Virus record (IMG/VR): IMGVR_UViG_3300021472_000011
Coordinates: 1 to 27,673 of that record
Direction: 5' to 3' (one strand)
DNA: 27,673 bases
Source of the DNA: a virus
The first letter of the stretch is position 1. Each line of letters begins with the position of its first letter. Positions 484 to 14,750 of this stretch are shown here, piece by piece. A program made the position numbers and the translations under genes. The notes under the pieces are model-generated. The model did not search any database. It was not told where the DNA came from and was given only the letters and a program-made list of their open reading frames with translations.

Positions 484-687
484 CTATTTTATCCTATCAA
501 TAGGAACTACATCCCATTCTACACTATGCAACCTTTTTAATTTTCCTTCTTTAATCCCCTTCAGTAATATTTCATAAATTCTCTCTCCTTCCTTACCCAA
601 TTTCTTTCTTAGCCATTCTCTATTTAAAGGCAATGTATGAAACCTTCTTTGTAACCTTTTTAAACATAAATAATCCATTTTAGTCAT
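484..687 (-). CDS. small basic protein of unknown function
   Basis: A 67-residue Lys/Arg-rich protein. No family is recognised. It looks like a compact helical fold (LKRLQRRFHTLP, then REWLRKKLGKEGERIYEILLK), with alternating basic and hydrophobic residues that could bind nucleic acid. AGGGAG stands about 10 nt before the ATG. Its 5' leader is the structured element at 722-814, which separates it from the lysis cassette. It is the last sizeable gene of the leftward operon. The RNA-element leader suggests separate control from the packed genes upstream. A small regulator is possible, but nothing in the sequence proves it. Confidence 0.6.
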   Translation of the reverse strand: MTKMDYLCLKRLQRRFHTLPLNREWLRKKLGKEGERIYEILLKGIKEGKLKRLHSVEWDVVPIDRIK

Positions 688-721
688 TTCTTTTAACTCC
701 CTTTCAAATTACCTCTTAATA

Positions 722-814
722 GCCTCATATTTGCCCTCAGATAAAAGGAAACACTTAAACAAGTATCTCAGGTATTGTTTTATTTCTTCATTTGATTCTG
801 GAGCAAAATAACAC
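722..814 (-). ncRNA. structured leader element, copy A
   Basis: One of two clear copies of a repeated intergenic element (the other is 14646-14739). Read leftward it starts GTGTTATTTTGCTC and ends GGGCAAATATGAGGC. UUUGCUC and GGGCAAA form a 7-bp closing stem (801-807 with 730-736) that is extended by CAGA/UCUG. An inner arm closes on GAUACUU-GUUU-AAGUGUU (750-767). The mispairs in the closing stem and apical hairpin are G-U in the leftward transcript and would be A-C on the other strand. It lies directly upstream of the gene ending at 484. Immediately 3' of the stem an ATG opens a short frame, MRLLRGNLKGS, ending just before that gene's start. The RNA family is not recognised. Confidence 0.6.
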
Positions 815-815
815 C

Positions 816-930
816 CTATTATTTCGTCCTGAGATAAAAGGAAGAACCTTAACAAAGGTTTTTAATACTTGTTTAGGTTCTTCATGCGATTTTAGAGGCA
901 TTTTTGAAACTATTAAGGGTATATTTTAAA
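816..930 (+). ncRNA. degenerate, inverted copy C of the structured element
   Basis: Read rightward, this stretch aligns over most of its length with copy B: TTATTT, then ATAAAAGGAA, CCTTAACAAAGG, a TACTTGTTT-like core, TTCTTC, AGAGGC and ATTAAGGGTAT. The hairpin AACCTT-AACA-AAGGTT (845-860) is intact, and a longer alternative pairing joins 841-849 with 875-883. The closing stem has largely lost complementarity. It lies head to head with copy A and points at the 3' end of the endolysin gene, with no rightward gene to serve. It is probably a decayed duplicate. Confidence 0.4.
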
Positions 931-936
931 AAGGTT

Positions 937-1560
937 CTACCAAAATTTATACTTTTCTGTTTTCCATTCTTCTAATAATTTCCCATACTTATAAATCTTT
1001 TTTGAATAAAGATAGTTTATATCGCAATCGGTTCTGTATTGTTTGCATTTGCCTTTAACACGCCAAACACATATATTCTTTTTATGTTTCAAACATTCTT
1101 GATATCCTTGTTCCCAAGAACAGCATCCTTTAGTTTCTTTTAAAACCTTCCAACAAGACCTGTTATAGCATTGATAAATTATAAAAAGCTTTCCACACTT
1201 ATTAATCTTGTGATATTTGTGAAGAATATAAGCTTGAGCTAAGAAATAATCAAAGCTATCTTTTTCTTTCCAATTGGGAAACATTTTAGAAAGTTCTTCG
1301 TCCCACCATCTCGGGGTTATCTGAGCATAACCTAAGCTACCCCAACCATCTAAAGAAGTTCTCCATCTACAACCTGACTCTACCTTTAGCTGAGCAACTG
1401 AATACCAATAAGGATAATCTATACCAAAGAACCACTCATGAGCTTTTCTTACTTTATCTGAAAACTTCTTACAATCTTCAATTCCTGCTATACTAAGACA
1501 TGGCAAAAATAAGAGCAGAACCAATAAGCAAAATGAAATAATAAGATTTTTTATCTTCAT
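937..1560 (-). CDS. secreted lytic transglycosylase (endolysin), cysteine-rich
   Basis: A muralytic enzyme acting in the periplasm at lysis. The 207-residue protein begins with a signal peptide (MKIKNL plus a run of about 16 hydrophobic residues ending near SIAG26). It carries an SLT-type goose-lysozyme core: the expected catalytic Glu61 in KVESGC and the downstream GSLGYAQITP motif. The mature part has about eleven cysteines, many in a C-terminal half that I do not recognise, so disulfide bonding is likely. I chose the ATG at 1560 because it gives a clean signal peptide; a TTG seven codons upstream, with AGGAG at 11 nt, is possible. Its 5' end overlaps the holin-like gene by 68 bp. The following gap holds the paired RNA elements. 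Confidence 0.75.
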   Translation of the reverse strand: MKIKNLIISFCLLVLLLFLPCLSIAGIEDCKKFSDKVRKAHEWFFGIDYPYWYSVAQLKVESGCRWRTSLDGWGSLGYAQITPRWWDEELSKMFPNWKEKDSFDYFLAQAYILHKYHKINKCGKLFIIYQCYNRSCWKVLKETKGCCSWEQGYQECLKHKKNICVWRVKGKCKQYRTDCDINYLYSKKIYKYGKLLEEWKTEKYKFW

Positions 1561-1759
1561 TTGTCCACTCAATTTTCCCAAGCCTTATTCTCCTAAAAAG
1601 ATAAGATAAGAAATACCACCAAACCACCAAAAAAGTCTTTTTTATTATCACTTGGCAAGGAGCTGTAAAATCAAAAACCCAACCCGTCAAAAACAAAACC
1701 AAACAAACTATAATTAAAACTATTGCTAAAAACCATTCCTTAAAATATTTCTTCATCAT
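1493..1759 (-). CDS. small membrane protein, holin-like
   Basis: An 88-residue protein with three hydrophobic segments (about residues 10-30, 41-56 and 70-86) and a basic loop (RRIRLGK) between the second and third. Size, topology and position directly before the signal-peptide endolysin fit a holin or pinholin, which controls lysis timing by permeabilising the inner membrane. AAGGGA lies near the start. It overlaps the preceding small membrane gene by 20 bp and the endolysin by 68 bp, so translation is probably coupled. No family signature is recognised, so the holin call rests on topology and context. The XhlA-like protein at 21523-21807 and the 60-residue protein next door are rivals for the role. 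Confidence 0.5.
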   Translation of the reverse strand: MMKKYFKEWFLAIVLIIVCLVLFLTGWVFDFTAPCQVIIKKTFLVVWWYFLSYLFRRIRLGKIEWTNEDKKSYYFILLIGSALIFAMS

Positions 1760-1922
1760 TCTTTCCCTTTACTTTTTCTTTTAAATAATCAACCTTTCCT
1801 TCTACAATCTCAAGCTTTTCCAAAACTTCCTTTTTAACCTTCTTAGCATAAATCACTCCTAAACCAAACCCAACAAGAAAAGCTACTGCACAAACTAAAA
1901 CTATAATTAAAAATTCTTGCAT
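1740..1922 (-). CDS. single-span membrane protein with charged tail
   Basis: A 60-residue protein with one N-terminal membrane span (about residues 4-25, containing a GFGLGV glycine-rich stretch) and a Lys/Glu-rich helical tail likely to form a coiled coil. The chosen ATG at 1922 has AGGAGG 8 nt upstream; a GTG three codons earlier also opens the frame but would sit within the ribosome site. It lies in the lysis cassette between the o-spanin and the holin-like gene. It may be an antiholin or an accessory lysis regulator. No homologous family is recognised. Confidence 0.5.
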   Translation of the reverse strand: MQEFLIIVLVCAVAFLVGFGLGVIYAKKVKKEVLEKLEIVEGKVDYLKEKVKGKNDEEIF

Positions 1923-1943
1923 TTTTAACACCTCCTTTTTTTA

Positions 1944-2192
1944 TTATTCACAAGCTTTTATTGCTTCTCTTAAAAGCTCTATTTCTTTTTCAAGCTTAAG
2001 ATAATTGTTTAAAATAATTTGCAATTTCTCTGGATAAGTTGCATTATCAGGAATAGGCTCTAAATCAGCTTTAGGAACCTCAGGAATTTTACACTTAATA
2101 TAAACAGGCTTTTCTATATATTTAATTTCAGGTTTCATTAAACCACAAGCACTTAATAACAATAAAGAAAACAAAAATATTATTTTCTTCAT
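1944..2192 (-). CDS. outer-membrane spanin lipoprotein (o-spanin, Rz1-like)
   Basis: An 82-residue lipoprotein. A short signal ends in the lipobox LLSAC, so Cys16 would be lipidated. The mature part starts with a proline-rich linker (about 10 prolines up to residue 53) and ends in an amphipathic helix, the usual o-spanin build. It would pair with the i-spanin encoded directly upstream, with which it shares an ATGA start/stop overlap (2189-2192), and fuse inner and outer membranes as the last step of lysis. No similarity beyond this architecture is claimed. The pair implies a diderm host. Confidence 0.7.
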   Translation of the reverse strand: MKKIIFLFSLLLLSACGLMKPEIKYIEKPVYIKCKIPEVPKADLEPIPDNATYPEKLQIILNNYLKLEKEIELLREAIKACE

Positions 2193-2575
2193 TTTTCTTT
2201 TTCTTTCTCTTTCTGAATTTTTATAAACTCATCAATCATAATAGCCATCTTCTGACAATCTTCAGCAGGAACATAAATTTTCTTAGTTATCACTTTAGGA
2301 ATTTTTATAACTTTAGGTTTTTTATTTATTAACTTAAGTAATTTATTTACTTTGGCTTGGTATTTTTGCTGCTGAACTTGCAGTTCTTTTACTAAATCCG
2401 CATTTACTTTTTTACAATCTGCCAGTTGCTTTTCTAAATAAAAAACTTGCTTTTCTAATTTATCGCTTTTTTGCTTTAAATAATAAAAATAGCTTCCAAA
2501 TGCTCCTATCAACAAAACAATCAAACCATAAAAAAGCCACTTATAAATTCCTCTATAGATTAAGAACTGCCACAT
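2189..2575 (-). CDS. inner-membrane spanin (i-spanin, Rz-like)
   Basis: A 128-residue protein with one N-terminal membrane segment (about residues 13-32), then a long coiled coil (residues about 35-85, LEKQVFYLEKQLADCKK and onward) and a basic, proline-containing stretch. This N-in topology with a periplasmic coiled coil is the Rz architecture. Its start lies inside the end of speD (23-bp overlap) without an independent strong ribosome site, so it is probably coupled to speD translation. Its stop overlaps the o-spanin start. Two cysteines (in ADCKK and AEDCQ) may form the intermolecular disulfides seen in some spanins. Confidence 0.65.
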   Translation of the reverse strand: MWQFLIYRGIYKWLFYGLIVLLIGAFGSYFYYLKQKSDKLEKQVFYLEKQLADCKKVNADLVKELQVQQQKYQAKVNKLLKLINKKPKVIKIPKVITKKIYVPAEDCQKMAIMIDEFIKIQKEKEKEK

Positions 2576-2945
2576 TGTTACTCCAAGGCAAAGCTAAATA
2601 ATCAATTTTTATATCTTTGCCTAAAATTGCTTTTAAAATATTCAAAACTTCTTTTTCATTAAAATTTCTACAAGAAGACATCTCATATCTCATATATTCT
2701 TTCTCTGGCCAAGTATGAATATAAACATGGCTCTCTATTAAAACCATACCAGCAGATAATCCATATTCGCCTTTAAATCCATTTCCACCAGGAATAGGAA
2801 AATGAGCAATCTGTAATGTATGCAGAACTGGTGTCATATTAGCAGCCTCAATTGTTCTTATCAAAAGCAACTTCATAATTTCATCTGAAGATAAAAGCTC
2901 AGGAGGAACCTCATATACATTCACCAATAGCACTTTCCCCTCCAT
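2553..2945 (-). CDS. speD: S-adenosylmethionine decarboxylase, pyruvoyl proenzyme
   Basis: This enzyme makes decarboxylated SAM, the aminopropyl donor for spermidine synthesis. The 130-residue length equals that of the short bacterial/archaeal SpeD class (Thermotoga and Bacillus type). The self-cleavage site IESH (Glu71/Ser72, Ser becoming pyruvoyl), His77 in HTWPE and Cys92 in SSC are all present, with the same spacing (S+5 to His, +15 to Cys) as the Thermotoga enzyme. AGGAGG lies 9 nt before the ATG. It sits between the lysine-rich protein genes and the spanins, an unusual place for a metabolic gene, and its stop codon overlaps the i-spanin start, tying it to the late operon. Its partner is the speE-like gene at 8717-9574. 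Confidence 0.9.
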   Translation of the reverse strand: MEGKVLLVNVYEVPPELLSSDEIMKLLLIRTIEAANMTPVLHTLQIAHFPIPGGNGFKGEYGLSAGMVLIESHVYIHTWPEKEYMRYEMSSCRNFNEKEVLNILKAILGKDIKIDYLALPWSNNVAVLNL

Positions 2946-2966
2946 TCATAGGTTCCTCCTTTTTTA

Positions 2967-3251
2967 TTATTTTTTCTTCTTTCTACCTCTTTTTCTCTTT
3001 ACTGTTTTTACTTTAGCTACTTTAGCCAACCTTTGCCCTTTTTTAGTTTTTAAACTTCTTAACAGGCTAATAGCTTTTGTTCTTCCTCCTCTTGGTCCTT
3101 TCTTAGCAGTTATGCAAACTAAAACTTTCCTTCCTGGTTTATTTGGCACAGGAACAACTCTATAAGCAATACACCCTCTTTTGCTACCTAATTTCTCTCT
3201 TACATATTTGCCAGTCTTATACTTATAGATTGCTCCTTTTTTAAGAGGCAT
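2967..3251 (-). CDS. lysine-rich small protein with poly-Lys tail (1)
   Basis: A 94-residue, extremely basic protein ending KRKRGRKKKK. The first half (about residues 7-55) has mixed hydrophobic and glycine character (VPVPNKPGRKVLVCITAKKG), suggesting a small beta-rich fold; the second half is a Lys/Arg tail. AAGGAG precedes the ATG at good spacing. It is the third of three consecutive genes whose products end in Lys/Arg runs, placed between the giant ejection-type protein and speD. A virion or DNA-binding role is plausible from charge alone; no family is recognised. Confidence 0.65.
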   Translation of the reverse strand: MPLKKGAIYKYKTGKYVREKLGSKRGCIAYRVVPVPNKPGRKVLVCITAKKGPRGGRTKAISLLRSLKTKKGQRLAKVAKVKTVKRKRGRKKKK

Positions 3252-3252
3252 T

Positions 3253-3480
3253 TTACTTCTCCTTCTTCTTTCTTCTTGCCCTTGAAATTTTCATTCTTCT
3301 TTGCAAATCTTTCCCCCATCGAGTAAGTTTTTGAGTTCTCGGCCTTAATAACCCAACAGCTTGTAATGTTATGGTTGCAACTCTAAAAGCTTCCTTTTCA
3401 TCAAGTTTTCTATGTTTTTCTAATGCCCCGACAGCTTTCATAAGGAGGTAGGGCTTATCAACATCTCTCTTTTTAGCCAT
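3253..3480 (-). CDS. lysine-rich small protein with basic tail (2)
   Basis: A 75-residue basic protein. Predicted helices (LLMKAVGALEKHRKLDEKEA and a following segment) precede a basic C-terminus with WGKDLQRRMKISRARRKKKEK-like composition. A GGAGG sequence stands close to the ATG, and it ends one base before the next gene begins. The family is unknown. Like its neighbours, the charge suggests DNA or RNA contact, either packaged in the head or acting on host nucleic acid. There are no cysteines and no membrane segment. Confidence 0.6.
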   Translation of the reverse strand: MAKKRDVDKPYLLMKAVGALEKHRKLDEKEAFRVATITLQAVGLLRPRTQKLTRWGKDLQRRMKISRARRKKKEK

Positions 3481-3498
3481 ACCTCCTCCCTCCTTTAA

Positions 3499-3765
3499 TT
3501 ATTTTTTCTTTTTCTTTTTCCTTCCCTTAGCAATCTTTCTTGCATTTTGAGCAAAAACAGCCTCTCTTAAAAGCTCAGTATTTCCTGTTTCTCTGGCTTC
3601 TCTTTTAGCCTCATTAATACACTCCTGAGTTACTCCTTTATACCCTTTCCTTATACAATACCTTGTAAACTTCCCTACTGTTCCCTTTCTTTCCATCCTC
3701 TCTTTTGCTTCCTGTAACCAATACCTGTCCTCTTTTTTGGTTGCTTTTTTCTTTTTTCTTGCCAT
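3499..3765 (-). CDS. lysine-rich small protein with poly-Lys ends (3)
   Basis: An 88-residue protein with basic runs at both ends (MARKKKKATKK and GRKKKKKK) around a helical middle rich in Arg, Glu and Ala (about residues 15-75, two cysteines). It follows the giant ejection-type gene by 14 bp and has AGGAGGTG before the ATG. No family is recognised. The doubled polycationic ends are typical of proteins that neutralise DNA phosphates, so an internal head protein is a reasonable guess, as is a structural partner of the large protein upstream. Confidence 0.6.
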   Translation of the reverse strand: MARKKKKATKKEDRYWLQEAKERMERKGTVGKFTRYCIRKGYKGVTQECINEAKREARETGNTELLREAVFAQNARKIAKGRKKKKKK

Positions 3766-3779
3766 GGCGCACCTCCTTA

Positions 3780-6700
3780 CTACATTATTTGTCTTGCAAA
3801 AGCTTGTATTTCTTTTCTTATTCCTTTTTCTGCTCTCTTATTCAATTCAGCCCACCTTACCACTTCTTCAGGTGTAATATGCATTAAGTTCCAATATCTA
3901 TAATAAATCATATCTCCCTTTTTACCAGCCTCCACAGCCTTTTCTTTGACCTTCTCATTATATTCTATTAATGCTCTTAAAGCAGCTTTTTTCTCTTCTG
4001 CTGTTTCTGCCTTGCTTAAAGCAGTTCCAAGCTTTCTCAAAATTTCGTTTCTTCTTCTTTGAATTTCTCTTTCTAAAGCTCTCATATCAAAAACTTTCTG
4101 AACACGCATTGGTTTGAATCCTAAAGCCATCATAAAAGCTTCTTTACCTGTTAAGCTCACAGGTCTTCCTTCTTCATCTAAAACAACCTCTCCAAATGTA
4201 GTTCTTAATCCAGCTCTACCTTTTATTCCTCTATACACATCTCTTATAGCAAGTGGCATGAGTTCCATTATAGCCCCCTCTTTATCTCCTCTTTTCCAAA
4301 GACTAATTGACCTTTTAATCTGTCTTAAAAGATTTTGAATTACACCTCCATAAACTCGCATTGGGTCTTCGCTAAATCCAACCCCTACACTTATTGAAAT
4401 TGAAGGGGAAATATAGCCTGCTGGTCCATATTTAAGCTCAGGATGTTTGCTTAAATCTATCTCTAATTCTCTACCTGTAAATTTTCTATAAAGAGGTTTA
4501 ACTACATGTTCTTCAACCAATTCTCCACCAGGTAAAGCAACTACTCCACCCAACACCATTGGAGAACCTAACAACCAACCTAAAGCCTTCCAATCCTTTT
4601 TCCTTGCAAGATTAAATGCATACCTGAAATAATGAAAAGTAAAGGTTTGTAATGCAGTTAATAATCTTCCCCAAGATTTTCTTTCTATTGGTGCTCTGTT
4701 ATATCTACTTGCCCAGAAATGTCCTTCCAACATTACTTCTAAAGCCTTTTTATAAGCTTCATCAAAAGGCATTTTCTTTATCTTGCGAAAATAATCAAAA
4801 GCTCCCATAAAATGAACTGCTCTATTAACAAAAGTTTCCACATATCTAAAAGGAAGCATTGCAGTATCTACAATAGTATTCATTCCTCTCCACTGATTCA
4901 TCATTTCGTCAACAATATTTGCATCAAGCCAGCCTTCTTGAATTGCCTTTCTCAAAGCCTTTCTATCCTCTAAATCCAAACCTCTTTTCCCAAATACTTT
5001 TTTAAGCCCAACAAGTAATTGTTTGGCAGGAATTTTATGATGAATATAAGCAGCTAAACCAGATGTTAAGTTCTGAGTAGCATTAATAAGAGCAGATTTT
5101 ACTCTACCTCCTAAAAACCAAAGAACAATCAATCTATTAAGCTGTCTAACCTCTCTTGGTTCAGGTGTTCCAAATGCATAACTTAAATAATCGCTTAATT
5201 CTCTAATAAGCCCTTCAGGTTTATATCCTTTTCTATGAACAAGCTTATAAAATGCCTTATAAGCATGTTCCATTGCTTGTTTTTTAGCTTTAGACAATCC
5301 ATATCCATATAAATAGCCTCTTAATCTCTTTTCAGCATCTTCAAGCTTTAAGCTAAATCCAGGAATATTCTTTCTTCTAATTAAATGGGCACTCCATCCT
5401 AAGCTCTTTAAGAAATTATCTATATCTTCTGCTAAATTCATATAGAAATTAGCAACATCTTCTTTAGGAAGCTTCTTAGCTCTTTCAGCTGAAGTATGTA
5501 AAAATGCTATAATCTTAGAAAATGGAATTTCTGCTCCTGCTTCAACTGGAATTCTGCTTATTTCTTCAGCAACTACTTTAACATTTTTAGGAATTGATTT
5601 GACATCAAAAGGAACTTCTAACTCTTTAAACCACTTCTCAACTGTAGAATAATCACCTTTTTCAAAAGCTTCAGCAATTCTTTTTGCTTCTGCACTTGTT
5701 TCAACATCATGAGCAAAAATAACTTCACCAGTCTTAGGATCAATAAGCTTAACCATAAATCCGCCAGTTCTTCTCTGAGGCATGTAGTAAGGAACTGGAT
5801 ACATTTCAGCATACCTTACAAGATGACGATAAAAAGCAGCATGCTTAGTTTTTAATTCATCAGGAACAACTTTAGGATTTGCCTTCTCTAATGCTTTAGT
5901 CAAAATTTCCTTTTCTTCATTTGACATTGGTTTAGCATCTATATATTTCTTTAAAGCCTCTTTATAGCTATCTTTAATATCCTTCCAAACTATTTCTAAA
6001 AACCTTCTCACTCTTCTATAAACACTCTTTTCTTCAGAAGACAAATTTTTGACATTAGGATCAGGTTTGCCTGTTAAAGATTCTCTATAAAGAATTCTGA
6101 AAACCTTTTCTTTGCTCTCTTTAGAAAGTTTATTAAGAGGTTTCATAATTGTTTCATCAACAGCATAAGCCCATCTATTGGCCTGAGGCTCCCTTATCCA
6201 CTTCATCGCATATTCAATCTCTTTAACCTCAGGATAATAATCTCCATATCTTCTAACAATATCCTCCAAATTATATAATTTTGCTGTCCAAGTCTTAATT
6301 CCTTTTATATCTTTTCCTCTTATTTCCTTTCCATAGCCTAAAATATCAGCAAGCCTATATAGTTCTTTCTTAGCTGCTTTTTCTCTTGTGACTTTAGCAA
6401 GCTGATTTAGTGTTTTAAATCCCTTTTTAAGAACTTCATCTAAAGGCAAGCCAGCATAAAGCTTAACTTCAGATAAAGCAGACTTATATTTTTCAGCTAA
6501 ATCTGGATAATCTTTTAATACATTTTCAGGAACAGGTTTGTTTTCCTTAAGAGCTTGTTCTACTATACCTTTATGAAACTCTTTGGCTGATTCTATTTCT
6601 TTCGGAGTAGGAATAGGAGATTTTCCTATTACTCCTAAATCAGCAAAAGTAATTTTTTTACCAGCATCTTTAAAACGAAATCCTAAATAATCTTTTAAAG

Positions 6701-7664
6701 GAACTTTCCAGAGTTCTCCATGATAAAACATTCTATCTATTTCTTTAGCTCTTTTTTCACTAATTTTAGGAAAGCCAAAAACCTTTTCCCATTCTTTTTT
6801 AGTCATTTCCCAAGGTTCTTTTTCTTGTAAAGATTTTTCTTTTATTTCAGCTTTTAATTCTGTTTCTGGCTTTATTTCTGGTTTAATTTCTGGTTTTGCT
6901 TCAACTATTTCTTCAGCTTCTTTAACTCCTTTAGTAATCTCCTCTAAATCAGGAGCTAATCCTTTCTCGACTTTTAAAACTTTCTTAGGCTTTTCTTCTA
7001 AAATTTCAGGTTTTTCAACAAGCTTTGCTTCTTTAGCAACCTCTGGTTCTTTAATTTCTGGCTTTAATACTTCCTCAATTTTTTCAACTTCTTCTTCTAA
7101 TTTAGGTTTAGCTGGTCTTTTAGCAGCTTTTAATAAAGCTTTTGTTCCTCTTTCTGCTGCTACACCAACTCCAACTCCTACTAAAGGCGCCAAAACGCTT
7201 GCAAGAACAGGATGTTTTTCTTCTAAAGGTTCAGCTACAGCTGTTGTTCCTGCCTCAGCAAGCAAACTGCTACCAGCAGCACCAGCAGTTCTTCCTGTCT
7301 CTTTTAAAGCTGCTTTAGCCCCTGCTCTAATAGCCTGACGGGCTATATCTTTTATTCCAAATCCTACAGGAGCAGATAAAGCAAAAACAGGATCAAACCA
7401 AGGCCACTTCTCTAATTCTTCCAATTGTTCAGGAGAATAAATTGTAGACATTATTTTTCTTTTCTTCTCTACAGGAAATTTATTCCAATCCTTTACATTA
7501 ATAGCCAAAACCTGAGCAAAAACATCAGGTTTCTTAGCAAGAGCTTCTGTTAATTTAATTTGTTTCTCTTTAGATAAATTTTTAAAATCAGGTAGAACAA
7601 AGGGTAAAATTTTAAAAAGCTGTGTTTTAGCCCAACTTAATCTTGCTTCTTTATCACTTGGCAT
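3780..7664 (-). CDS. giant virion protein, PLxRFG / large polyvalent type, probable ejection protein
   Basis: At 1294 residues this is the largest product in the window. Order of parts: N-terminal helical region (1-115); Gly/Ala-rich, possibly membrane-active stretch (about 115-180, APVGFGIKD and GVGVGVAAERG); a long Glu/Lys/Pro linker with PEIKPEIKPE (about 185-290); then a long helical body. The body has the motif H-x-G-I-V-E-Q-A-L-K-E-N-K-P-V-P-E-N-V-L (about 365-390), which recurs in large polyvalent phage and plasmid proteins. Near the C-terminus a conserved-looking block (SRYNRAPIERKSWGRLL, then LQTFTFHYFRY) and a hydrophobic Gly-rich segment resemble PLxRFG-domain podoviral proteins. 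Such proteins are packaged and injected with the DNA. No catalytic motif was found. Confidence 0.65.
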   Translation of the reverse strand: MPSDKEARLSWAKTQLFKILPFVLPDFKNLSKEKQIKLTEALAKKPDVFAQVLAINVKDWNKFPVEKKRKIMSTIYSPEQLEELEKWPWFDPVFALSAPVGFGIKDIARQAIRAGAKAALKETGRTAGAAGSSLLAEAGTTAVAEPLEEKHPVLASVLAPLVGVGVGVAAERGTKALLKAAKRPAKPKLEEEVEKIEEVLKPEIKEPEVAKEAKLVEKPEILEEKPKKVLKVEKGLAPDLEEITKGVKEAEEIVEAKPEIKPEIKPETELKAEIKEKSLQEKEPWEMTKKEWEKVFGFPKISEKRAKEIDRMFYHGELWKVPLKDYLGFRFKDAGKKITFADLGVIGKSPIPTPKEIESAKEFHKGIVEQALKENKPVPENVLKDYPDLAEKYKSALSEVKLYAGLPLDEVLKKGFKTLNQLAKVTREKAAKKELYRLADILGYGKEIRGKDIKGIKTWTAKLYNLEDIVRRYGDYYPEVKEIEYAMKWIREPQANRWAYAVDETIMKPLNKLSKESKEKVFRILYRESLTGKPDPNVKNLSSEEKSVYRRVRRFLEIVWKDIKDSYKEALKKYIDAKPMSNEEKEILTKALEKANPKVVPDELKTKHAAFYRHLVRYAEMYPVPYYMPQRRTGGFMVKLIDPKTGEVIFAHDVETSAEAKRIAEAFEKGDYSTVEKWFKELEVPFDVKSIPKNVKVVAEEISRIPVEAGAEIPFSKIIAFLHTSAERAKKLPKEDVANFYMNLAEDIDNFLKSLGWSAHLIRRKNIPGFSLKLEDAEKRLRGYLYGYGLSKAKKQAMEHAYKAFYKLVHRKGYKPEGLIRELSDYLSYAFGTPEPREVRQLNRLIVLWFLGGRVKSALINATQNLTSGLAAYIHHKIPAKQLLVGLKKVFGKRGLDLEDRKALRKAIQEGWLDANIVDEMMNQWRGMNTIVDTAMLPFRYVETFVNRAVHFMGAFDYFRKIKKMPFDEAYKKALEVMLEGHFWASRYNRAPIERKSWGRLLTALQTFTFHYFRYAFNLARKKDWKALGWLLGSPMVLGGVVALPGGELVEEHVVKPLYRKFTGRELEIDLSKHPELKYGPAGYISPSISISVGVGFSEDPMRVYGGVIQNLLRQIKRSISLWKRGDKEGAIMELMPLAIRDVYRGIKGRAGLRTTFGEVVLDEEGRPVSLTGKEAFMMALGFKPMRVQKVFDMRALEREIQRRRNEILRKLGTALSKAETAEEKKAALRALIEYNEKVKEKAVEAGKKGDMIYYRYWNLMHITPEEVVRWAELNKRAEKGIRKEIQAFARQIM

Positions 7665-7667
7665 TCC

Positions 7668-8714
7668 TTACTTCCCAAATAAAATCTGATATAAAGTCTC
7701 TCCAGTTATCTTTGCTTCCTCAGAAATAGCAGTTGTTTTTTTAGTTTTTCCAGTTTTTCTTCCTAAAAGCTCTTTAAGCCTGTTATAATAATCCCTTACT
7801 AACTCCCATCTCTCTTCTTCAGACTCAGCAGTTATCCATCTTGTATCTTTCTGAGCAAGCTGAATTGCTCTATCTAATATTCTTCTTTCTTCTGCTGGGC
7901 TTAAACCTGTTTCTCCTTTTTCTTTTTCTGAACGATAAATAACAACTTTAGGTGGAGTAGGTTTACCAAGAAGCTCAGTTTCCTTCTTAGTTTTAGCAGC
8001 AGTAGCTTTGGCTTTTTCAACTTGAGCAAGATTTAAAGCACTTCTTGCTAAACTTTCTAAAATTTGAGCTTTAGATTTTTCTAAATTAGTCAAAGTTTTT
8101 GAAGCATTTAAAAAGGCTTCCTGTATTTCTCTTGTTGTTTTAGGCTCTAAACCAAGTTCTAAAGCTCTTAAAGTTGCTTCATGAGAAAACCCTATCCAAT
8201 CAAAACTACCATCCTCTTTACAATACTTAGGATAAATACTTCTAAGATGATCCGCATAACTTTTTAAAACACTTCTTTTCTGCTCATCTTTAGCTTGATC
8301 AGCAAGAAATTCAAGATTAGTTATAATCAATTTAGTAGCTAATTTATTTTTAAAATCCTGCCACATTTTTTCTCTTTCCAAATATCCTTGCAAATAATCC
8401 TGTCCTATTAATAATCCACCCTTTGTTAATCCTGCTGCAAATCTTTCATCTGCTCCCAATGCCTTTGCTAAAGCACCTCCTAAAGCTGAACCTATCATTG
8501 CCAATGCTGCTTGCTTATAAACTCTTTGCCTTTCTTCTTCACTTATAGGCTGAAACCAATCTTTTAAAACAGATAAATCAAAAAGCCCAACATTAGGTTG
8601 AGCTCCTTGACTTAATGCATTTGTCACAGCACTTGCTAAAGCTCTGTCTTTCTCTTCTTTTATTCTTCTGCCTAAATCTGTATTGCTTAATATTTCTAAA
8701 AGTCCAGTTGGCAT
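7668..8714 (-). CDS. alanine-rich helical virion protein, probable ejection protein
   Basis: A 348-residue protein starting MPTGLLEIL. I place the start at 8714 because AGGAGGG sits directly before the speE stop and then the ATG; a frame extension of 14 codons upstream overlaps speE and lacks support. The protein is mostly helical: an Ala/Gly-rich patch (about residues 75-110, ALGGALAKALG and onward) that could contact membranes, then Lys/Gln-rich coiled-coil-like helices (about 185-260). It sits between two other large helical structural genes, the usual order for a set of three podoviral ejection proteins (compare P22 gp7/gp20/gp16). No sequence family is recognised. Confidence 0.5.
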   Translation of the reverse strand: MPTGLLEILSNTDLGRRIKEEKDRALASAVTNALSQGAQPNVGLFDLSVLKDWFQPISEEERQRVYKQAALAMIGSALGGALAKALGADERFAAGLTKGGLLIGQDYLQGYLEREKMWQDFKNKLATKLIITNLEFLADQAKDEQKRSVLKSYADHLRSIYPKYCKEDGSFDWIGFSHEATLRALELGLEPKTTREIQEAFLNASKTLTNLEKSKAQILESLARSALNLAQVEKAKATAAKTKKETELLGKPTPPKVVIYRSEKEKGETGLSPAEERRILDRAIQLAQKDTRWITAESEEERWELVRDYYNRLKELLGRKTGKTKKTTAISEEAKITGETLYQILFGK

Positions 8715-8716
8715 TG

Positions 8717-9574
8717 TTACCCTCCTACACTTACTTTTAAGTGTTTTATCCAACACAATGAATAAACATAAGCATCATAAGCATCTTCCTCAGCATTTCC
8801 CTTTTTAAGAGCTTCCCTTAAATCCTTGCTCCAGCTTGTAGCAGATAAGAACATTTGTCTATCAAATGCCTTTGTTTCTATATTATTTAATCTTTCCCAT
8901 TTAGGCTCTATTTTATCTACATTTGTTGCAAACCAAAATCCTTGTATCCCAGATAACATTTCTACTTTTAAAGGCACAACCCATTTGAATAATTTTCTTA
9001 ACTTTGCTCCAATCACTGTCATAACAGGTAGCATCAATGCTCCACCAGATTGAACCACCAAAACACCATGAGGTTTTAAAATCCTTTTTATTTCTTCATA
9101 ATGTTCTAAAGAAAAAAGTTTGCTTAAACTTGGGCTTGTAGGGTCAGGATAATCAGCAAAAACTATATCGAATTTATGCTTTCTACATTCCCTAACCCAA
9201 TAATAAGCGTCTTTGTTATAGATTTTTACTTTTTCATCATTAAAAGCATAACAGTTAAGGGCAGATACAAGAGGATGTTTTTTAGCAAGATCTGTTACAT
9301 CTGGATCTATATCAACTACAATCACTTTCTCAGCAAATTTAAGAGCTTCTCTACAAGCTAAACCATCTCCACCTCCTAAAATTAGCACTTTCTTAGGTTC
9401 TTTCCCTGCTACAACATAAGCAGAATATATAGCCAACTCATGATATCTATGTTCATCAGCAGAATGAAATTGAGTACAAAGATTTAAATCAAGCCTTAAA
9501 TGTCTTGTCTCAGGATCATGAAAAAGCTCTATCAAATTGTATTGAGATTTAAGGTAAACTATTCTTTGCCACAT
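8717..9574 (-). CDS. speE: spermidine synthase-like aminopropyltransferase
   Basis: It would transfer the aminopropyl group from decarboxylated SAM to a diamine. The 285-residue protein has the family hallmarks in order: an N-terminal beta region with the substrate-gate motif DEHRYHE (residues 40-46); the dcSAM-binding loop LGGGDGLACRE (66-76); VVDIDPDV; and FADYPDPTSP, matching the DxxDP catalytic segment, followed by KLFSLEHY. The DYPDP form is closer to the DLPDP subgroup than to the DSTDP of classical SpeE, so the amine acceptor may differ. The C-terminus of about 60 residues is atypical. It lies between two ejection-type genes, far from speD (2553-2945) but in the same operon, and its stop is 2 bp before the next gene. 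Confidence 0.8.
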   Translation of the reverse strand: MWQRIVYLKSQYNLIELFHDPETRHLRLDLNLCTQFHSADEHRYHELAIYSAYVVAGKEPKKVLILGGGDGLACREALKFAEKVIVVDIDPDVTDLAKKHPLVSALNCYAFNDEKVKIYNKDAYYWVRECRKHKFDIVFADYPDPTSPSLSKLFSLEHYEEIKRILKPHGVLVVQSGGALMLPVMTVIGAKLRKLFKWVVPLKVEMLSGIQGFWFATNVDKIEPKWERLNNIETKAFDRQMFLSATSWSKDLREALKKGNAEEDAYDAYVYSLCWIKHLKVSVGG

Positions 9575-9590
9575 TTAATCTATCTCCTCC

Positions 9591-10739
9591 TTAAAAAACC
9601 AAAGCTCCTAAAGCACTTGAAAAAGGAGAACCAAATTGTGCAGCCAATTTTCCAGCCATGCTACCTGCAGCAGCTTCAGCAGCAGCATTACCACCTAAAC
9701 CCAATAATCCAGCCAAACCAGATCCTAACCAAGATAATCCACCACCAGGTCCTAACCAATAACCAAGCCCTAATCCTAAAGCAGAACCAGCTATTTGACT
9801 AAATGGACTTGGTCCCTCTACTTCTCTTACAGTTGTAGGAATTCCCATTCTTCCACTATATAAAGTACTCCAAAGATTAAATAGGTTTTTATATCTCTGC
9901 TCACCAGAATATCTCAAAGCCTCTTCTCTTGCTGCTGCTCTTGCCAATTCATCAGCTAAAGCCCTTCTTCTTGCTTCTTCTTCTAATTCTGCCCTTCTTA
10001 ATTTATCTTCTAAGGAAACTCTATAAGCTCTTTCATACTCCAAAGCTCTCCGCCACTGATCCATTTTAGATGCACTTATTGCCTTTTCTTTTTCTAAAGC
10101 TCTCCTAAATTCATCTTCCATGGATCTTATTATTGCTCTTTCTCTTTCTAAAGACCTTCTATATTCATCCTCTAAAGCTTGCCTTCTTGCTGCTTCTAAA
10201 GCCTGTAATCCAGCCCATCTTAATTCTCTTCCTCTTTCAGCAAGCCTTGCTCCCAATTCTTTCATTGCCTCTTGAGCAATTGTAGAATTAATCACTCCTC
10301 TTGTAGCAAGCTGATTAAGATATCTTCCCCATTCTTCTTGATAAGGAAGCATTGATAAATAGGGTCTACTCATTTCGCTTACAAATTGCGGAGATGGTTC
10401 ATAATGTTTAGCTAAAACATCTAAAAGTTCCTTGCTTGGCTCATAATGCTTAGACATCACTCTTAAAAATTCTTCGCTTGGCTGATAATATTCTCCTACT
10501 AAAGAAGCAAAAGAAGGAGTTGGTGTATATGGTGTAGCTAATGCTTCTAAATATTTTTCACTTGGTTCATAATGTTTAGCTAAAACATCTAAAAATTCTT
10601 CACTGGGTCTATAATATTCTGTATGAGCTATATTAAAAAGGTCAGATAATAATTGTGTTTCTTGCGGTGTAGGAGGAGGAATTGTTCTTGTTTGAGTAAC
10701 TTTAGTTTCAGTGCTTCCTCCACCAAAAATGCTACCCAT
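9591..10739 (-). CDS. repeat-built structural protein, probable ejection/internal virion protein
   Basis: A 382-residue protein in four parts. Residues 1-40 are a polar Gly/Thr/Pro-rich head starting MGSIFGGGS. Residues 41-124 are six 14-residue units, each with Tyr at position 3, Pro at 5 and a hydrophobic end (for example KHYEPSKELLDVLA). Residues 189-278 are five 18-residue units of Arg/Glu-rich helix (for example MEDEFRRALEKEKA). About 320-382 is a Gly/Ala-rich hydrophobic tail (GLGLGYWLG onward) that could insert into membranes. The head-plus-helix-plus-glycine-rich-tail plan is common among phage proteins injected with DNA. It lies directly after the GNAT-like gene and before speE. No enzyme motif is visible. 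Confidence 0.55.
   Translation of the reverse strand: MGSIFGGGSTETKVTQTRTIPPPTPQETQLLSDLFNIAHTEYYRPSEEFLDVLAKHYEPSEKYLEALATPYTPTPSFASLVGEYYQPSEEFLRVMSKHYEPSKELLDVLAKHYEPSPQFVSEMSRPYLSMLPYQEEWGRYLNQLATRGVINSTIAQEAMKELGARLAERGRELRWAGLQALEAARRQALEDEYRRSLERERAIIRSMEDEFRRALEKEKAISASKMDQWRRALEYERAYRVSLEDKLRRAELEEEARRRALADELARAAAREEALRYSGEQRYKNLFNLWSTLYSGRMGIPTTVREVEGPSPFSQIAGSALGLGLGYWLGPGGGLSWLGSGLAGLLGLGGNAAAEAAAGSMAGKLAAQFGSPFSSALGALVF
9906..10175 (-). repeat. five tandem 54-bp (18-residue) helix repeats
   Basis: Within the gene at 9591-10739, residues 189-278 fall into five units of exactly 18 residues of the form L/M-E-D-x-x-R-R-A-L-E-x-E-R-A. Eighteen residues are five turns of a standard alpha-helix, so the same face recurs without the supercoiling expected from heptads. 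Confidence 0.75.
10368..10619 (-). repeat. six tandem 42-bp (14-residue) repeats
   Basis: Residues 41-124 of the same protein divide without gaps into six 14-residue units. Tyr (43, 57, 71, 85, 99, 113) and Pro (45, 59, 73, 87, 101, 115) are invariant, and PSEEFL-like cores recur. Nucleotide identity between units is partial, so the array is older than the beta-helix repeats at 16520-16905. Confidence 0.8.
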
Positions 10740-10741
10740 TT

Positions 10742-11152
10742 TTATTCCTCCTTAAAAGGTAATTCTAATGTAGTAGCAATTTTTTTAGTCCCTGCTAATC
10801 TTCTCCAAGCTTCAGGATTTCTTTCTGTAGAAAAATACATTGCAGATGCTCCTATTTTCTTAGCCAAAAAACTTAGCTCTTTATGCATTTTTTCACGCTT
10901 ATCAGTTGCTTCCTGCAAAAGAATTAAAGCTCCATAATGTTCGTCCAAATACATTACACAAAATCCATGAACCTTTTTTTCTTTTTCATCAATTAATACA
11001 AAAAACCTATAAGAACTATTAGGAATAAAACAAGCTGCCAACCTATTTAATTCTGCTTCATCTAAAGAATGTTTAATTTTTGCTAAATATTTTTTCCAAA
11101 AAGGCAAAATTTTTTTAATCATTTCTGGATTTTGTGTTTGTATTAATTGCAT
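10742..11152 (-). CDS. GNAT-like acetyltransferase fold protein
   Basis: A 136-residue protein with the alternating helix/strand pattern of a GNAT fold: SSYRFFVLIDEKEKKVHGFCVMYLD (broken beta hairpin), then a helix, then ASAMYFSTERNPEAWRRLAGTKK, which matches the C-terminal GNAT segment where a residue pair before a loop contacts the acceptor. The canonical acetyl-CoA loop (R/QxxGxG/A) is not evident: TDKREKMHKEL stands where it should be. Podoviruses often carry such GNAT-like proteins in the virion cluster (the T7 gp13 neighbourhood), possibly structural. Given speD and speE in the same operon, polyamine acetylation is an alternative. Genes on both sides are 2 bp away. Confidence 0.45.
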   Translation of the reverse strand: MQLIQTQNPEMIKKILPFWKKYLAKIKHSLDEAELNRLAACFIPNSSYRFFVLIDEKEKKVHGFCVMYLDEHYGALILLQEATDKREKMHKELSFLAKKIGASAMYFSTERNPEAWRRLAGTKKIATTLELPFKEE

Positions 11153-11154
11153 CG

Positions 11155-13212
11155 CTAATGTGGTTTAACATCAGTATAAACAGTAAAGCTTTGCTCTGTA
11201 GCAGTAAAGCTTACTCCTGCTACACTCCAGCTCTGGCTTGTTGCAGAGTAAGAAGCTTCACTTAAAGTAAGAGAAGTCTTTCTTAAAGAATAATCAGCAT
11301 CATATTTTGCAAAAACATTATCATTAAGAGTATAAGCGATTGTTCCGTCATATTCTTCAAAATCAGCCAATTTTGCTATAAAAGCACGAGAATAATCACT
11401 AAAAGTGCAATAACCACAAACATAAATATCTCCATTGCTATTACTGCAAATTCCTGTCAAGTGAATATCTACATCTCCTCTGTTTATTCCACATTGTTTC
11501 AAAACACCTAAAAGAAATCTATCTGTCTTAAGCACATATCCATTACCTTCTACCATTGATGCCATACAAACATTGCCATCTGGTAAAGAGCATAAACCAA
11601 AGAAAGAATCTGGTTCTTTATCTATTGCTTGTTGTCTAACAGCATTAAGATCATTATCAAACTTTGTTATTCTCAAACTACAATCACTTGACGAAGCATA
11701 ATAACGGTTAATAATCAAAACATTATTATCACTATCTATTGCAATACCGTAAGCTGTATAATAATCGCCCAAATAAACCTGTTTCTGAACTGTTAAGCTA
11801 TTATCAAGCTTTATTACATATCCTTTGCTACCACAAGCAAAAACATTACCATTTGAATCAATAGCAATATCATATAAATAATCATCCCCACCACTATCCA
11901 AAGTAATTTGATTAATAATATTCAAATCACTATCAAGCTTCGCAATATAAAAATCATCATTGGTCCCATTATAAGCAGAACCACAGACAAAAATATTCCC
12001 ATTAGAATCAATTGCTATATCTTGTAAAATATCATTATCACCGCTATCTATTGTTGCCTGTGAAACAACATTTAAATCATTATCAAATTTCGCAATATAA
12101 AAATCATTATTCGTCCCATTATTACTGTAACCACAAACATAAACATTATTACTGGAATCAACAGCTATTCCCATTGCCCTGTCAACTCCACTTCCACCAT
12201 CTATAGTAATCTGTTTAAGAACCTTCAAATTTTTATCAAATTTGGCAAGATAAATATCATAATCACTCCCATTATACCAATAACCACAAACAAAAACATT
12301 CCCATTAGAATCTACTGCCACATCTTTCAAAACAAGATCATCTCCTCCATCTATAAGCCCTAAAACAGATAAATCAGCATATACAGTTACAAAATCTGCC
12401 TTAGTTGTTGTTATTGAAGCATTTTTCACATGATAAGTAAAAACAACAGGAGTATCGCTTACATAATCAGGTAAAGTAACTGTAAAGCTATTGCTATCGC
12501 TCCAATCAGAAGGATCTATTGTTACATTTGAATCACTACAAGTTATTTTATACTGTAAACTACCACCTTCAGGATCAGAAGCATCAATAGTAAAAGTATA
12601 AGATTCTCCACCTACCAAAACCTCTTCTCTATCCACTGAATTAATCTCAGGTGGAAGGCTATCAGTAACATCTACAGTAAAGCTTGCCCATGAACTTACA
12701 TTACCAATATTATCAACTGCTCTGCATTTAAAAGTCAGTGTTTCTCCTACATGAGTTGAATCAGGCATAGTATAATCAATGCTATCTCCTGTAGTAGTAG
12801 AACCATCTGGTAATTGCCACTCAAAATGATCGACAACTGCTTTATTATCTTTGTAAGCTGTTAAAGACCCAGTAGCTGAAAGAGTAATGGTAGTATTATA
12901 CTTACCACCATAAGGACCATAAATAGTTGGCATAGTAACAGTTCCGCCCACACTGCTAAGTATTTCTGCCAAAAAATCAACCCATTTTTCACCATCATAA
13001 AGTTTAAATTTGTAAGTTCCCTCTGAAGTATCAAGCCATAAATGATATGTTATAGGATCAGTAGGAGGAACATCTCCTGCATCCAGCTTTCTTACACGGT
13101 TAAGTAAATTGTAAATTCTATCAAGCTCATTTATATGCTTTTCTATTGCTTGCGAAGTTGTATCTCCTGTAGGACTAAAATCTACAGGATATTGCTTTGT
13201 CCATTCACCCAT
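11155..13212 (-). CDS. tail fibre/appendage with Ig-like domains and a seven-bladed beta-propeller
   Basis: A 685-residue virion adhesin candidate. The N-terminus (WTKQYPVDFSPTGDTTSQAI, then KHINELDRIY) resembles the attachment region of podoviral fibre and appendage proteins. A 'WLDTSEGTYKFKLYDGEKWV' strand block follows, then two Ig/PKD-like domains (about residues 95-285, FEWQLPDG and ASDPEGGSLQY). About residues 288-620 hold seven SBBP-type repeats, each with a VDSNGNVFVCG-like strand and a xFYIAKFD-like strand, enough for one seven-bladed propeller. The C-terminal 60 residues are Ser/Thr-rich strands (SLTLSEASYSATSQSW). There is no catalytic motif. It probably recognises the host surface. 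It ends 2 bp before the GNAT-like gene. Confidence 0.6.
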   Translation of the reverse strand: MGEWTKQYPVDFSPTGDTTSQAIEKHINELDRIYNLLNRVRKLDAGDVPPTDPITYHLWLDTSEGTYKFKLYDGEKWVDFLAEILSSVGGTVTMPTIYGPYGGKYNTTITLSATGSLTAYKDNKAVVDHFEWQLPDGSTTTGDSIDYTMPDSTHVGETLTFKCRAVDNIGNVSSWASFTVDVTDSLPPEINSVDREEVLVGGESYTFTIDASDPEGGSLQYKITCSDSNVTIDPSDWSDSNSFTVTLPDYVSDTPVVFTYHVKNASITTTKADFVTVYADLSVLGLIDGGDDLVLKDVAVDSNGNVFVCGYWYNGSDYDIYLAKFDKNLKVLKQITIDGGSGVDRAMGIAVDSSNNVYVCGYSNNGTNNDFYIAKFDNDLNVVSQATIDSGDNDILQDIAIDSNGNIFVCGSAYNGTNDDFYIAKLDSDLNIINQITLDSGGDDYLYDIAIDSNGNVFACGSKGYVIKLDNSLTVQKQVYLGDYYTAYGIAIDSDNNVLIINRYYASSSDCSLRITKFDNDLNAVRQQAIDKEPDSFFGLCSLPDGNVCMASMVEGNGYVLKTDRFLLGVLKQCGINRGDVDIHLTGICSNSNGDIYVCGYCTFSDYSRAFIAKLADFEEYDGTIAYTLNDNVFAKYDADYSLRKTSLTLSEASYSATSQSWSVAGVSFTATEQSFTVYTDVKPH

Positions 13213-13215
13213 CTT

Positions 13216-14628
13216 TTACACCTCCACTACTTCTAAAATTAATCCTAAAAGCTTCATGCTTCCAGATTGCACCATTAGCTCAGGCTGTAAATATGGTATT
13301 CTATGATTGCATTTGAATTGCACTAAGCTACTTTCCTGCTGAACTACAGGATCATCATCATAATAAGCTATATCATCATCATAATAAGCAATATCACCAC
13401 TTGGTATTAAATCTAAACTTTTATTTAACTTATTTATTTTCAAATTCATAGTTCCTAAACTAATCCCTTGATAAAACATTTTGCCTTTCTTTAACAAAAA
13501 TTGTCTACTTGGATGTATTCTTTTTGTTATCAATCTTGCTTGTATATCCTCTCCATCATCGTCAGTTAAAGTGCTATCCATTCTGTATAATCCATCTTCT
13601 AAAGCTAAATAAACAGTATTTTCAATCCAAGTAACAGCACAACACTTTTTAGGAAATTTAAATGCTGTCCATGCTCCATTGTAATAATGAAAAACATAAA
13701 CAAATTCACTATTTTTTATTCTTACCCAAACCTGCCCTTTAGGCTTAACATGCCAAATTCTCACAGTATTAGGGTTAAATTCTTTTAACCATTTATTAAC
13801 TTTTTCTCCTATATCCCTTACCTTTATATCTCCATACTCAAAAACAGTATTAAGACTTCTCACTCCACTTCTATCCATAAAAATAATTAAATTCCCTACT
13901 TCTACCGCAGCTAATCTTGATAAAAGTCCACTATCTTCTGAAACCTGATAAACAGCCCAATTAGGATAAACCCCAATTACTCGATAAATCCTTCTGTTAT
14001 CTTTAAAAACAATTATATCTTTGCTTAACATCTTAACCGCAATAATATTTCCACCATCTTTATATCCAACCTCAAGCTTGATTGCATCGCTATCAGTCCC
14101 TTCAAAATTCCAATTCGTCTCATCTCCTATTCCAGACCAATATAAATAATCATCCCCTTGCTTGCTGACTATAACCCGTCCATACTGCACATTCACATAA
14201 TCGCAAATAGGAGAAGTATAAATTGTAGTTAAAGTTGTTCCATCTGTAAACTGTAAATTTCCACCAGAAGCAATCAGAACCTTATTCCCCCATTCAGCAA
14301 AAATAGGAATTTTATCTCCTGATAAATCACCAAGCTCTGTAAACGTCCCATCAAAATTGTATTTATAAAGTTTTGTTCCAGAAGAAACCAATAAAAAATC
14401 TAAATTTTTTGCATAAAAAAGCTGATCTATATTGCTACCTAAATCTGCAAGCTTTTTTGTTCCATCCCGAGTTTTTAAAACACCGCTTGAAAAATCATAT
14501 TCCCAATTAAGAAGAACTACACATTCATTTTCGGCAAGGGCCTCGGGTGGCAAAGTATGATTAAGCCCACCTGAAAAATCAGTAAAATGCACTATCCTTG
14601 TTCCGCTGTGCTTTGTTCCAAGTCTCAT
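13216..14628 (-). CDS. tail nozzle / tail tubular-type protein
   Basis: A 470-residue beta-rich protein. The start (TRIVHFTDFSGGLNHTLPPEALAENE) carries the F-x-x-G-L-N pattern plus N-E-x-x-x-x-x-N-W and a following R-D-G-T-K seen in podoviral nozzle proteins, where it introduces a beta-propeller. The body is strand after strand (LLVSSGTKLYKYNF, KVLIASGGNLQF, YVNVQYGRVIVSKQGDDYLYWS). It would cap the tail below the adaptor ring. Position just after the adaptor agrees. Two adjacent copies of IAYYDDD (near 13360-13395) are a small internal duplication. Its leader is RNA element copy B, not a directly abutting gene, so its expression may be set separately. Confidence 0.6.
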   Translation of the reverse strand: MRLGTKHSGTRIVHFTDFSGGLNHTLPPEALAENECVVLLNWEYDFSSGVLKTRDGTKKLADLGSNIDQLFYAKNLDFLLVSSGTKLYKYNFDGTFTELGDLSGDKIPIFAEWGNKVLIASGGNLQFTDGTTLTTIYTSPICDYVNVQYGRVIVSKQGDDYLYWSGIGDETNWNFEGTDSDAIKLEVGYKDGGNIIAVKMLSKDIIVFKDNRRIYRVIGVYPNWAVYQVSEDSGLLSRLAAVEVGNLIIFMDRSGVRSLNTVFEYGDIKVRDIGEKVNKWLKEFNPNTVRIWHVKPKGQVWVRIKNSEFVYVFHYYNGAWTAFKFPKKCCAVTWIENTVYLALEDGLYRMDSTLTDDDGEDIQARLITKRIHPSRQFLLKKGKMFYQGISLGTMNLKINKLNKSLDLIPSGDIAYYDDDIAYYDDDPVVQQESSLVQFKCNHRIPYLQPELMVQSGSMKLLGLILEVVEV

Positions 14629-14645
14629 TTTAAATACCCTTTAAC

Positions 14646-14739
14646 GCCTTCATATTTGCCCTATAATAAACAGAAGACATCAAACAAATATCAAAACCTT
14701 TATTAAAGGCTTTCTTTTTATTACAGAGCAAAATAACAC
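14646..14739 (-). ncRNA. structured leader element, copy B
   Basis: The second clear copy of the element at 722-814, lying between the adaptor stop (14751) and the nozzle start (14628). On the leftward transcript UUUGCUCUGUAAUAAA (14732-14717) pairs over 16 bp with UUUAUUAUAGGGCAAA (14670-14655) including two G-U pairs. Inside are a hairpin AAGCCUUU-AAU-AAAGGUUU and a smaller GAUAU...AUGUC hairpin, making a three-way junction. On the + strand the G-U pairs would be A-C, so the leftward RNA is the structured one. After the stem comes ATGAAGGCG, opening a 7-residue frame ending just before the nozzle ATG. The family is not recognised. Confidence 0.65.
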
Positions 14740-14750
14740 GCATTTTTATA

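Follow-up and report, generated by a model that had tools for sequence, protein, structure and literature searches.

A palindromic dispersed repeat with MITE-like features in a phage lineage that probably infects heat-loving bacteria

Small palindromic insertions are well described for bacterial chromosomes. In T4-type phages, the PeSL cassettes ascribed to Arbiol and colleagues (2010) are reported to be mobile intergenic stem-loop units that combine an early promoter with a loop resembling a terminator. The ERIC/YPAL repeats of enterobacteria (RU-1 and RU-2) are mobile intergenic repeats of 127 and ~168 bp with stable stem-loops, and their description gives them terminal TA, a TA target duplication, a non-autonomous character and open frames (PMC2759123). 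The Correia elements (NEMIS) of Neisseria are presented, in a 2024 review of prokaryotic miniature inverted-repeat transposable elements (MITEs), as small MITEs often situated just upstream of genes, with transcripts that RNase III cleaves at the terminal repeats; the review mentions bacteriophages once, in its abstract, where they stand as a further type of mobile element (PMC10969869). IS200/IS605 elements carry hairpins at both ends and do not duplicate their target (PMC7290912). The presence of MITEs in phage DNA is in itself nothing new, because an E. coli survey reports them in prophage regions, where they are rare (0.97% in one data set and 0.39% in the other); that survey counts genome-predicted MITEs falling in such regions, whereas the copies described here were found only in a phage lineage (PMC13113432). 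The subject of the present analysis is a short repeat present in three copies, A, B and C, in IMG/VR virus record IMGVR_UViG_3300021472_000011, the whole of which (27,673 bases) was analysed and is called the window. The repeat is a real palindromic dispersed repeat, confined so far to one phage lineage, with one well-supported insertion, and the reading preferred here, held at a probability of about 0.6, is that its copies are a non-autonomous, MITE-like (ERIC/Correia-like) palindromic DNA element multiplied within that lineage as far as it was searched.

Two related records carry the repeat and were compared with the window: the sister record 3300021499_000007 (G002), which is 91.5-99.7% identical to the window at nucleotide level in long aligned blocks and of which one stretch is referred to as L020, and 3300025163_000032 (L004), the proteins of which are 87-98% identical to those of the window. 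The copy C of G002 is designated L020C and the copy B of L004 is designated L004B. The three intergenic copies of the window, reported as a recurrent unit in a first-pass annotation of this DNA, are homologous, each being recovered by a profile built without it: A, B and L004B together recovered C on the + strand (E 5.5e-11), A, C and L020C recovered B (E 6.9e-13), and B, C, L004B and L020C recovered A (E 1.2e-17). A BLAST search of A against the window also returned B (E 2.6e-5) and the C region (E 1.8e-4). Copy A occupies 710..828 on the - strand, with a core at 725-814 and a tail reaching GGTA at 710, upstream of ORF 484..687, and copy B lies at 14635..14750 on the - strand with its core at 14650-14739. 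Copy C (802..921, + strand) is inverted and stands head to head with A, as had been proposed; its orientation follows from the strong + strand match of the profile made without C, and an alternative placement of C in A's orientation was rejected, the weaker match (4 to 25 bits) being attributed to the palindromic make-up. Where their 5' ends overlap, A and C form a 30-bp dyad, GGAGCAAAATAACACCCTATTATTTCGTCC, at 800..829, read directly from the sequence. Dispersed intergenic copies in either orientation, as expected of a MITE, are therefore present, with A and B on the - and C on the + strand.

The end motifs that had been ascribed to all three copies are exact in A and B, GTGTTATTTTGCTC at 801-814(-) and 14726-14739(-) and GGGCAAATATGA at 725-736(-) and 14650-14661(-), but C lacks exact ends. 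The shared unit is longer than first described: in an alignment of A, B, C, L004B and L020C it runs ~25 nt past GGGCAAATATGA into a tail ending TTAA(R)GGGTA, which gives ends of the form TA..GTGTTATTTTGC / GGCAAATATGA..TTAARGGGTA and a length of ~115-120 bp (~116 nt for B). The right end is GGTA in all three copies, and the tail of C, which finishes with ATTAAGGGTA at 921, stops a little short of position 937, where the opposite-strand gene 937..1581 has its 3' end.

The junction occupied by B is filled in the window, G002 and L004 only. In IMGVR 3300017593_001843 (L018), 3300014887_000013 (L019) and contig QNAZ01000004.1 from a Thermodesulfobacteriota metagenome-assembled genome (MAG; L055), the genes on the two sides of B have homologues (78-80% and 67-72% identity) that abut, with a few bases around the stop and start codons between them, and the upstream gene ends in ..GTATAAAAATGAGG or ..GTGTAAAAATGAGG with no insert. 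The same genes abut too in relatives L011 and L012 (upstream protein 58% identical, downstream protein 37-46%), and relative L009 ends ahead of the junction. B is bounded by TTTAA direct repeats, and its removal in silico together with one TTTAA leaves AAAGTTTAAAATGAG, which is one base shorter than the AAGGTGTAAAAATGAG of L019 and L055. Since B is absent and its flanking genes abut in five relatives, B looks like a one-lineage insertion, and the simplest history is a single insertion in the lineage of the window; an insertion polymorphism with an empty site, another mark of a MITE, is seen here. Such unoccupied sites in relatives point to a small mobile element and away from a fixed RNA switch. 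The latter was the view of the first-pass annotation, in which the copies form a conserved cis-acting RNA leader: the leftward RNA would fold, and stem and mini-frame together would regulate translation of the following gene. That explanation is considered rather unlikely, and the lack of B from the same junction in L018, L019, L055, L011 and L012 is a strand of the evidence that weighs against it.

The arrangement around the gene starts speaks in its favour. A and B had been said to lead directly into a gene start, each with a tiny ATG frame between, and both frames were found by reading, A and B showing a stop-start arrangement. The mini frame of A, MRLLRGNLKGS* (693..728, - strand, read directly), stops 5 nt before the ATG of ORF 484..687. 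At B, the peptide MKALKGI (14653-14630) is the end of a 37-codon frame across the copy, MRVILLCNKKKAFNKGFDICLMSSVYYRANMKALKGI* (14630..14743, - strand), with its stop 1 nt before the next ATG. The tail of B also supplies a Shine-Dalgarno-like AAAGGG, recognized by eye at 14637..14642 on the - strand, 8 nt before the ATG of ORF 13216..14628, and the gene downstream of B encodes a head-closure/connector-like protein. In the empty-site relatives L018, L019 and L055 a Shine-Dalgarno-like AAGGTG or CAGGTA lies within the last codons of the upstream gene, and the matching stretch of the window reads AAAGTT.

On the preferred reading as a mobile DNA element, the repeat would have transposed by means of enzymes provided in trans (the phage showed no candidate), A and C would have arisen as a head-to-head pair, and B would have landed between a stop and a start codon within the late operon. 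The leftward transcript at B would then carry a long intercistronic hairpin, and the AAAGGG of the tail together with the small frame, whose stop abuts the next ATG, would replace the translation signals of the downstream head/connector-like gene; by analogy with what is reported for Correia elements, the insertion may act as a site of RNase III-type processing. The inserted copies may have a role in the mRNA through the hairpin, the ribosome-binding site and stop-start coupling. A bolder version, which is judged unlikely, would make the repeat a phage-specific mobile cassette that brings along an intercistronic hairpin and a ribosome-binding site: every insertion between genes of a tightly packed operon would re-wire downstream translation through mini-frame stop-start coupling, and at B it would have started a new 37-codon gene from hairpin DNA.

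The same frame allows an explanation in which B is a small gene of 37 amino acids gained in the lineage and A and C are its decayed copies. The frame is intact in B and in L004B, the 19 differences are spread 3/6/10 over the codon positions, and they entail 7 amino-acid changes against a simulated mean of 12.2 (P 0.0034, simple simulation); out-of-phase shifts of the pattern gave 7 or fewer changes in none of 5000 trials, and a 36-codon open frame has P ~0.03 in shuffles. This coding signal is weakened by several observations: seven of the 19 differences are consecutive and hence not independent, shifts kept in phase yield equally few changes in 25% of 2400 trials, A has two stops in B's frame and C has a stop (G002) or an extra base (window) by eye, and the paralogues have no third-position excess (A/B 10,16,15; A/C 17,13,14; B/C 14,16,12). 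In addition, no Shine-Dalgarno-like stretch lies ahead of the ATG of the frame, and its product has no Pfam family and no match in the phage collection. The coding signal at B therefore appears modest to weak, and a gained gene with decayed copies is judged improbable.

All copies are imperfect palindromes, strong in B and C and weak in A. A symmetric palindrome scan placed B at the top of the window and L004B at the top of its record, with C within the top eight of the window and A outside them, so that the repeat is short and palindromic, as MITEs are, with B (~116 nt) the clearest case. As RNA, B(-) folds far better than its shuffles (z -6.3, 0/200 as good), which favours an RNA leader, and C(+) also folds well (z -4.4, 0/200). 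Opposed to a leader are the weak fold of A(-) (z -1.5, 17/200 shuffles as good) and the fold of L004B, for which the antisense strand (z -7.7) surpasses the sense strand (z -4.8). The element-sense strand exceeds its complement in stability at 37 °C in 5/5 copies, by 0.8 to 15.4 kcal/mol (0.8 in L004B), again as a leader would have it, but at 70 °C the sense strands are predicted to retain a small stability of -2.4 to -9.8 kcal/mol, and for C and L020C the order is reversed at 80 °C, with the complement more stable.

The compensatory changes by which the closing stems were said to be kept are few, with 4 of 25 pairs changed on both sides, a count that 305 of 500 shuffles equalled or bettered. 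In the corresponding test, which is weak because only five sequences (A, B, C, L004B and L020C) enter it, covariation above the shuffled controls was not found: 88.8% of cells were paired (29/500 shuffles as good), 6 cells were changed on both sides (105/500), 13 further pair types occurred (332/500), and the covariation score was 0.252 (68/500). Slid versions of the alignment paired in 39-53% of cells against the 88.8%, a comparison in which the structure was derived from the same alignment. The statement that mispairs are G-U only on the leftward transcript holds by eye for the closing stems of A and B but fails for the whole hairpin and for C, where the cells include C-A, A-C, A-G, G-G and others. 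No Rfam family matched the window at gathering score, and the 5 and 12 matches from permissive searches of two element regions were all far under their gathering scores, in agreement with the earlier statement that no known RNA family can be assigned; for a leader, missing covariation and a missing family are both unfavourable. Promoter-like or terminator-like function was also considered and rejected, since simple scans gave no clear excess: no sigma-70-type promoter at B (shuffle mean 0.9), three at A/C (shuffle mean 1.9, sd 1.3) and no terminator-like site at the element copies.

At the A/C site, C points into the 3' end of the opposite-strand gene 937..1581 and not toward a gene start, which suits an element that varies in orientation and context and is contrary to a leader. 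Gene 937..1581 is lysozyme-like by eye and has no PHROG or Pfam family match. Four relatives of this gene (L051-L054) are followed downstream by other genes or sequence and have no adjacent copy of the element, a further point against a leader; a fifth match, L050, is G002 itself. The block 651-900 differs between the window and G002 at 1 of 250 positions, with up to 12 differences per 50 in the flanks, as a conserved leader might produce. The genome pair is a mosaic, however, and has another identical block at 1501-2050, so the low divergence of 651-900 is no proof of constraint. Within 651-850 A has no difference from G002, and C, also present in G002, differs there by 1 nt in the loop and by a small number of positions in the tail. 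In G002 a 63-codon frame runs through anti-C and A (L020 4088-4279, - strand), and in the window this frame is shifted by the 1-nt difference in the C loop. A tRNA-like sequence, recognized by eye and perhaps an integration site, lies at 6900-6985 of L052, ~0.3 kb past the homologue of 937..1581. The earlier reading of the repeat as an RNA leader or regulator keeps the foldable recurrent unit before gene starts at A and B, but its main predictions, wider conservation and covariation, were not borne out in these tests.

Copies were sought elsewhere in several ways. Four pattern scans of IMG/VR gave no convincing copy outside the lineage: each returned 3 stretches of the lineage, and the totals were 4, 18 (15 of them from elsewhere), 3 and 45 (42 from elsewhere). 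The stretch L021 of the first scan was regarded as chance by eye, and the 57 non-lineage stretches of the two larger scans were profile-screened, the best reaching 17.1 bits with E 0.0014 (L096, L115 and L132). The L096 match was treated as chance, its value being conditional on the pattern; one opposite-strand frame is open there over the 60 codons displayed. In a search of 13 relative records with model R1, 7 had a match at E up to 1, among them the true copies of G001 and G002; the matches of G010 (E 0.084), G009 (0.22, inside a 682-codon frame), G005 (0.66) and G003 (0.94) were treated as chance. A blastn search of 690-960 against other phages and plasmids gave 5 and 2 records, all short, at E 0.8-0.9. 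The further copies with covarying stems on which the first-pass annotation had staked its leader were not found outside the lineage in these searches.

The remaining match to R1 bears on a replication-linked hairpin, that is, a single-strand initiation or origin-accessory site in which C would be the original near the origin and A and B secondary duplications. It lies in L011 (4567-4723, - strand; 30.1 bits, E 0.027, and E 0.0036 for its record in a second search), close to 11-bp repeats and to a relative of the ATPase gene of the sister record, where 11-bp iteron-like repeats (L020 3227-3270) are found ~0.9 kb from C. By profile the L011 match is not significant (10.1 bits, with 4/40 shuffled sets as high), its fold is no better than shuffles (40/200 as good), and B is far from the repeats; such a site is considered highly improbable. 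The 11-bp-spaced repeats themselves, at L020 3227-3270 and L011 4858-4961, are near related ATPase genes, differ in sequence and are possible replication origins. Integron attC sites were considered and dropped, no matching boxes being seen by eye and no integrase in the Pfam scans.

Several results weigh against a mobile DNA element. No convincing copy was found in bacterial genomes by pattern, model R1 or blastn searches: a pattern scan of an 84,980-species genome collection gave 0 copies, as did R1 over 4, 41 and 64 whole genomes, where scoring mostly covered only some of the initial candidates and was without a positive control, and R1 on eight loci gave four weak matches (E 0.2-2.9). Short, partial blastn matches at E up to 0.01 occurred in 14 of 297 genomes and in 10 of 136; one, G434, comprises three mutually identical places with a transposase-like gene by eye, another, G247, is 57 nt long, and the rest (13 of the 14 and 9 of the 10 genomes, 19-42 nt each) were treated as chance without inspection. 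Neither a transposase nor an autonomous parent appeared when the 41 ORFs of the window that were treated as genes, and 15 ORFs from the ends of G002, were scanned with Pfam. No empty site is demonstrable for A/C, because L051-L054 carry other sequence there, and no matching target-duplication pair around A/C was seen by eye. At B the target duplication is ambiguous and could be TTTAA, present as direct repeats at 14751-14755 and 14630-14634, any part of it, or AAAATG. Each genome has only three copies, with one clean empty site (B), and the preference for the sense strand in all five copies at 37 °C is a bias that a purely DNA-level palindrome does not need.

The absence of an own transposase accords with a MITE, the frame in B having 37 codons and no Pfam family, and no related autonomous transposon was found among the loci and genomes searched; since these searches cover only part of sequence space, the repeat is filed as MITE-like. 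Like the PeSL cassettes, it is an intergenic stem-loop unit of phage genomes for which mobility is proposed, and unlike them it has no terminator-like site and no promoter excess in simple scans. ERIC/YPAL repeats are nearest in architecture, the phage element being short (~116 bp), palindromic and intergenic, with the right end GGTA and an open frame in B; the likeness is one of architecture alone, with no claim to a relation. The 27.7-kb phage record holds three copies, against the tens to hundreds per chromosome that the MITE review gives (PMC10969869). The RNase III-type processing proposed for B by analogy would recall Correia elements, which carry promoters, whereas the simple sigma-70-type scan gave none at B and no clear excess at A/C. 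The hairpin-based non-autonomous insertion of IS200/IS605-derived PATEs is a further parallel, but the phage element is one long hairpin with TTTAA repeats bounding B, which separates it from PATEs even if the duplication at B is ambiguous; Y1 transposase matches were present in 17 of 41 genomes of the class to which the L055 MAG belongs. No other phage-borne palindromic family came up in a literature search of titles and abstract openings that covered few subscription journals.

A large terminase and an SU10-type portal, adaptor and major capsid protein are encoded among the leftward-read genes of the window. The virus is probably a phage of heat-loving bacteria, and its host may be a thermophile, perhaps of the Thermodesulfobacteriota, as suggested by one MAG contig. 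Relatives inside bacterial genome assemblies are L055 (Thermodesulfobacteriota MAG, terminase 80% identical) and L056 (Aquificaceae MAG, 107-kb contig, 64%). Other features of the genome include a 69-amino-acid frame at 167-376 (+), 97% identical in G002, whose match to anaerobic ribonucleotide reductase (PF13597, E 2.1e-9) is limited to the C-terminal end (profile positions 533-560 of 562) and which resembles a stand-alone glycyl-radical piece carried by a phage. The leftward gene block holds an S-adenosylmethionine decarboxylase (PF02675; 2553-2945, -) and a spermine/spermidine synthase domain protein (PF01564; 8717-9574, -), the latter with 87-97% identity in L017, L018 and L019. An 81-nt tandem repeat lies within a beta-helix gene at 16518-16922, and the nucleotide alignment to G002 is interrupted at 16579-16842, consistent with a differing copy number of that repeat. 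The terminase frame of relative L013 (10001-11353) has one in-frame stop, and this relative is possibly a recoded phage.

A family seen so far in a phage lineage alone, with an insertion in a late operon and empty sister sites, would illustrate the way in which such elements enter the compact operons of viruses and alter them. For intercistronic hairpins and newly arisen small frames, it amounts to a natural experiment.

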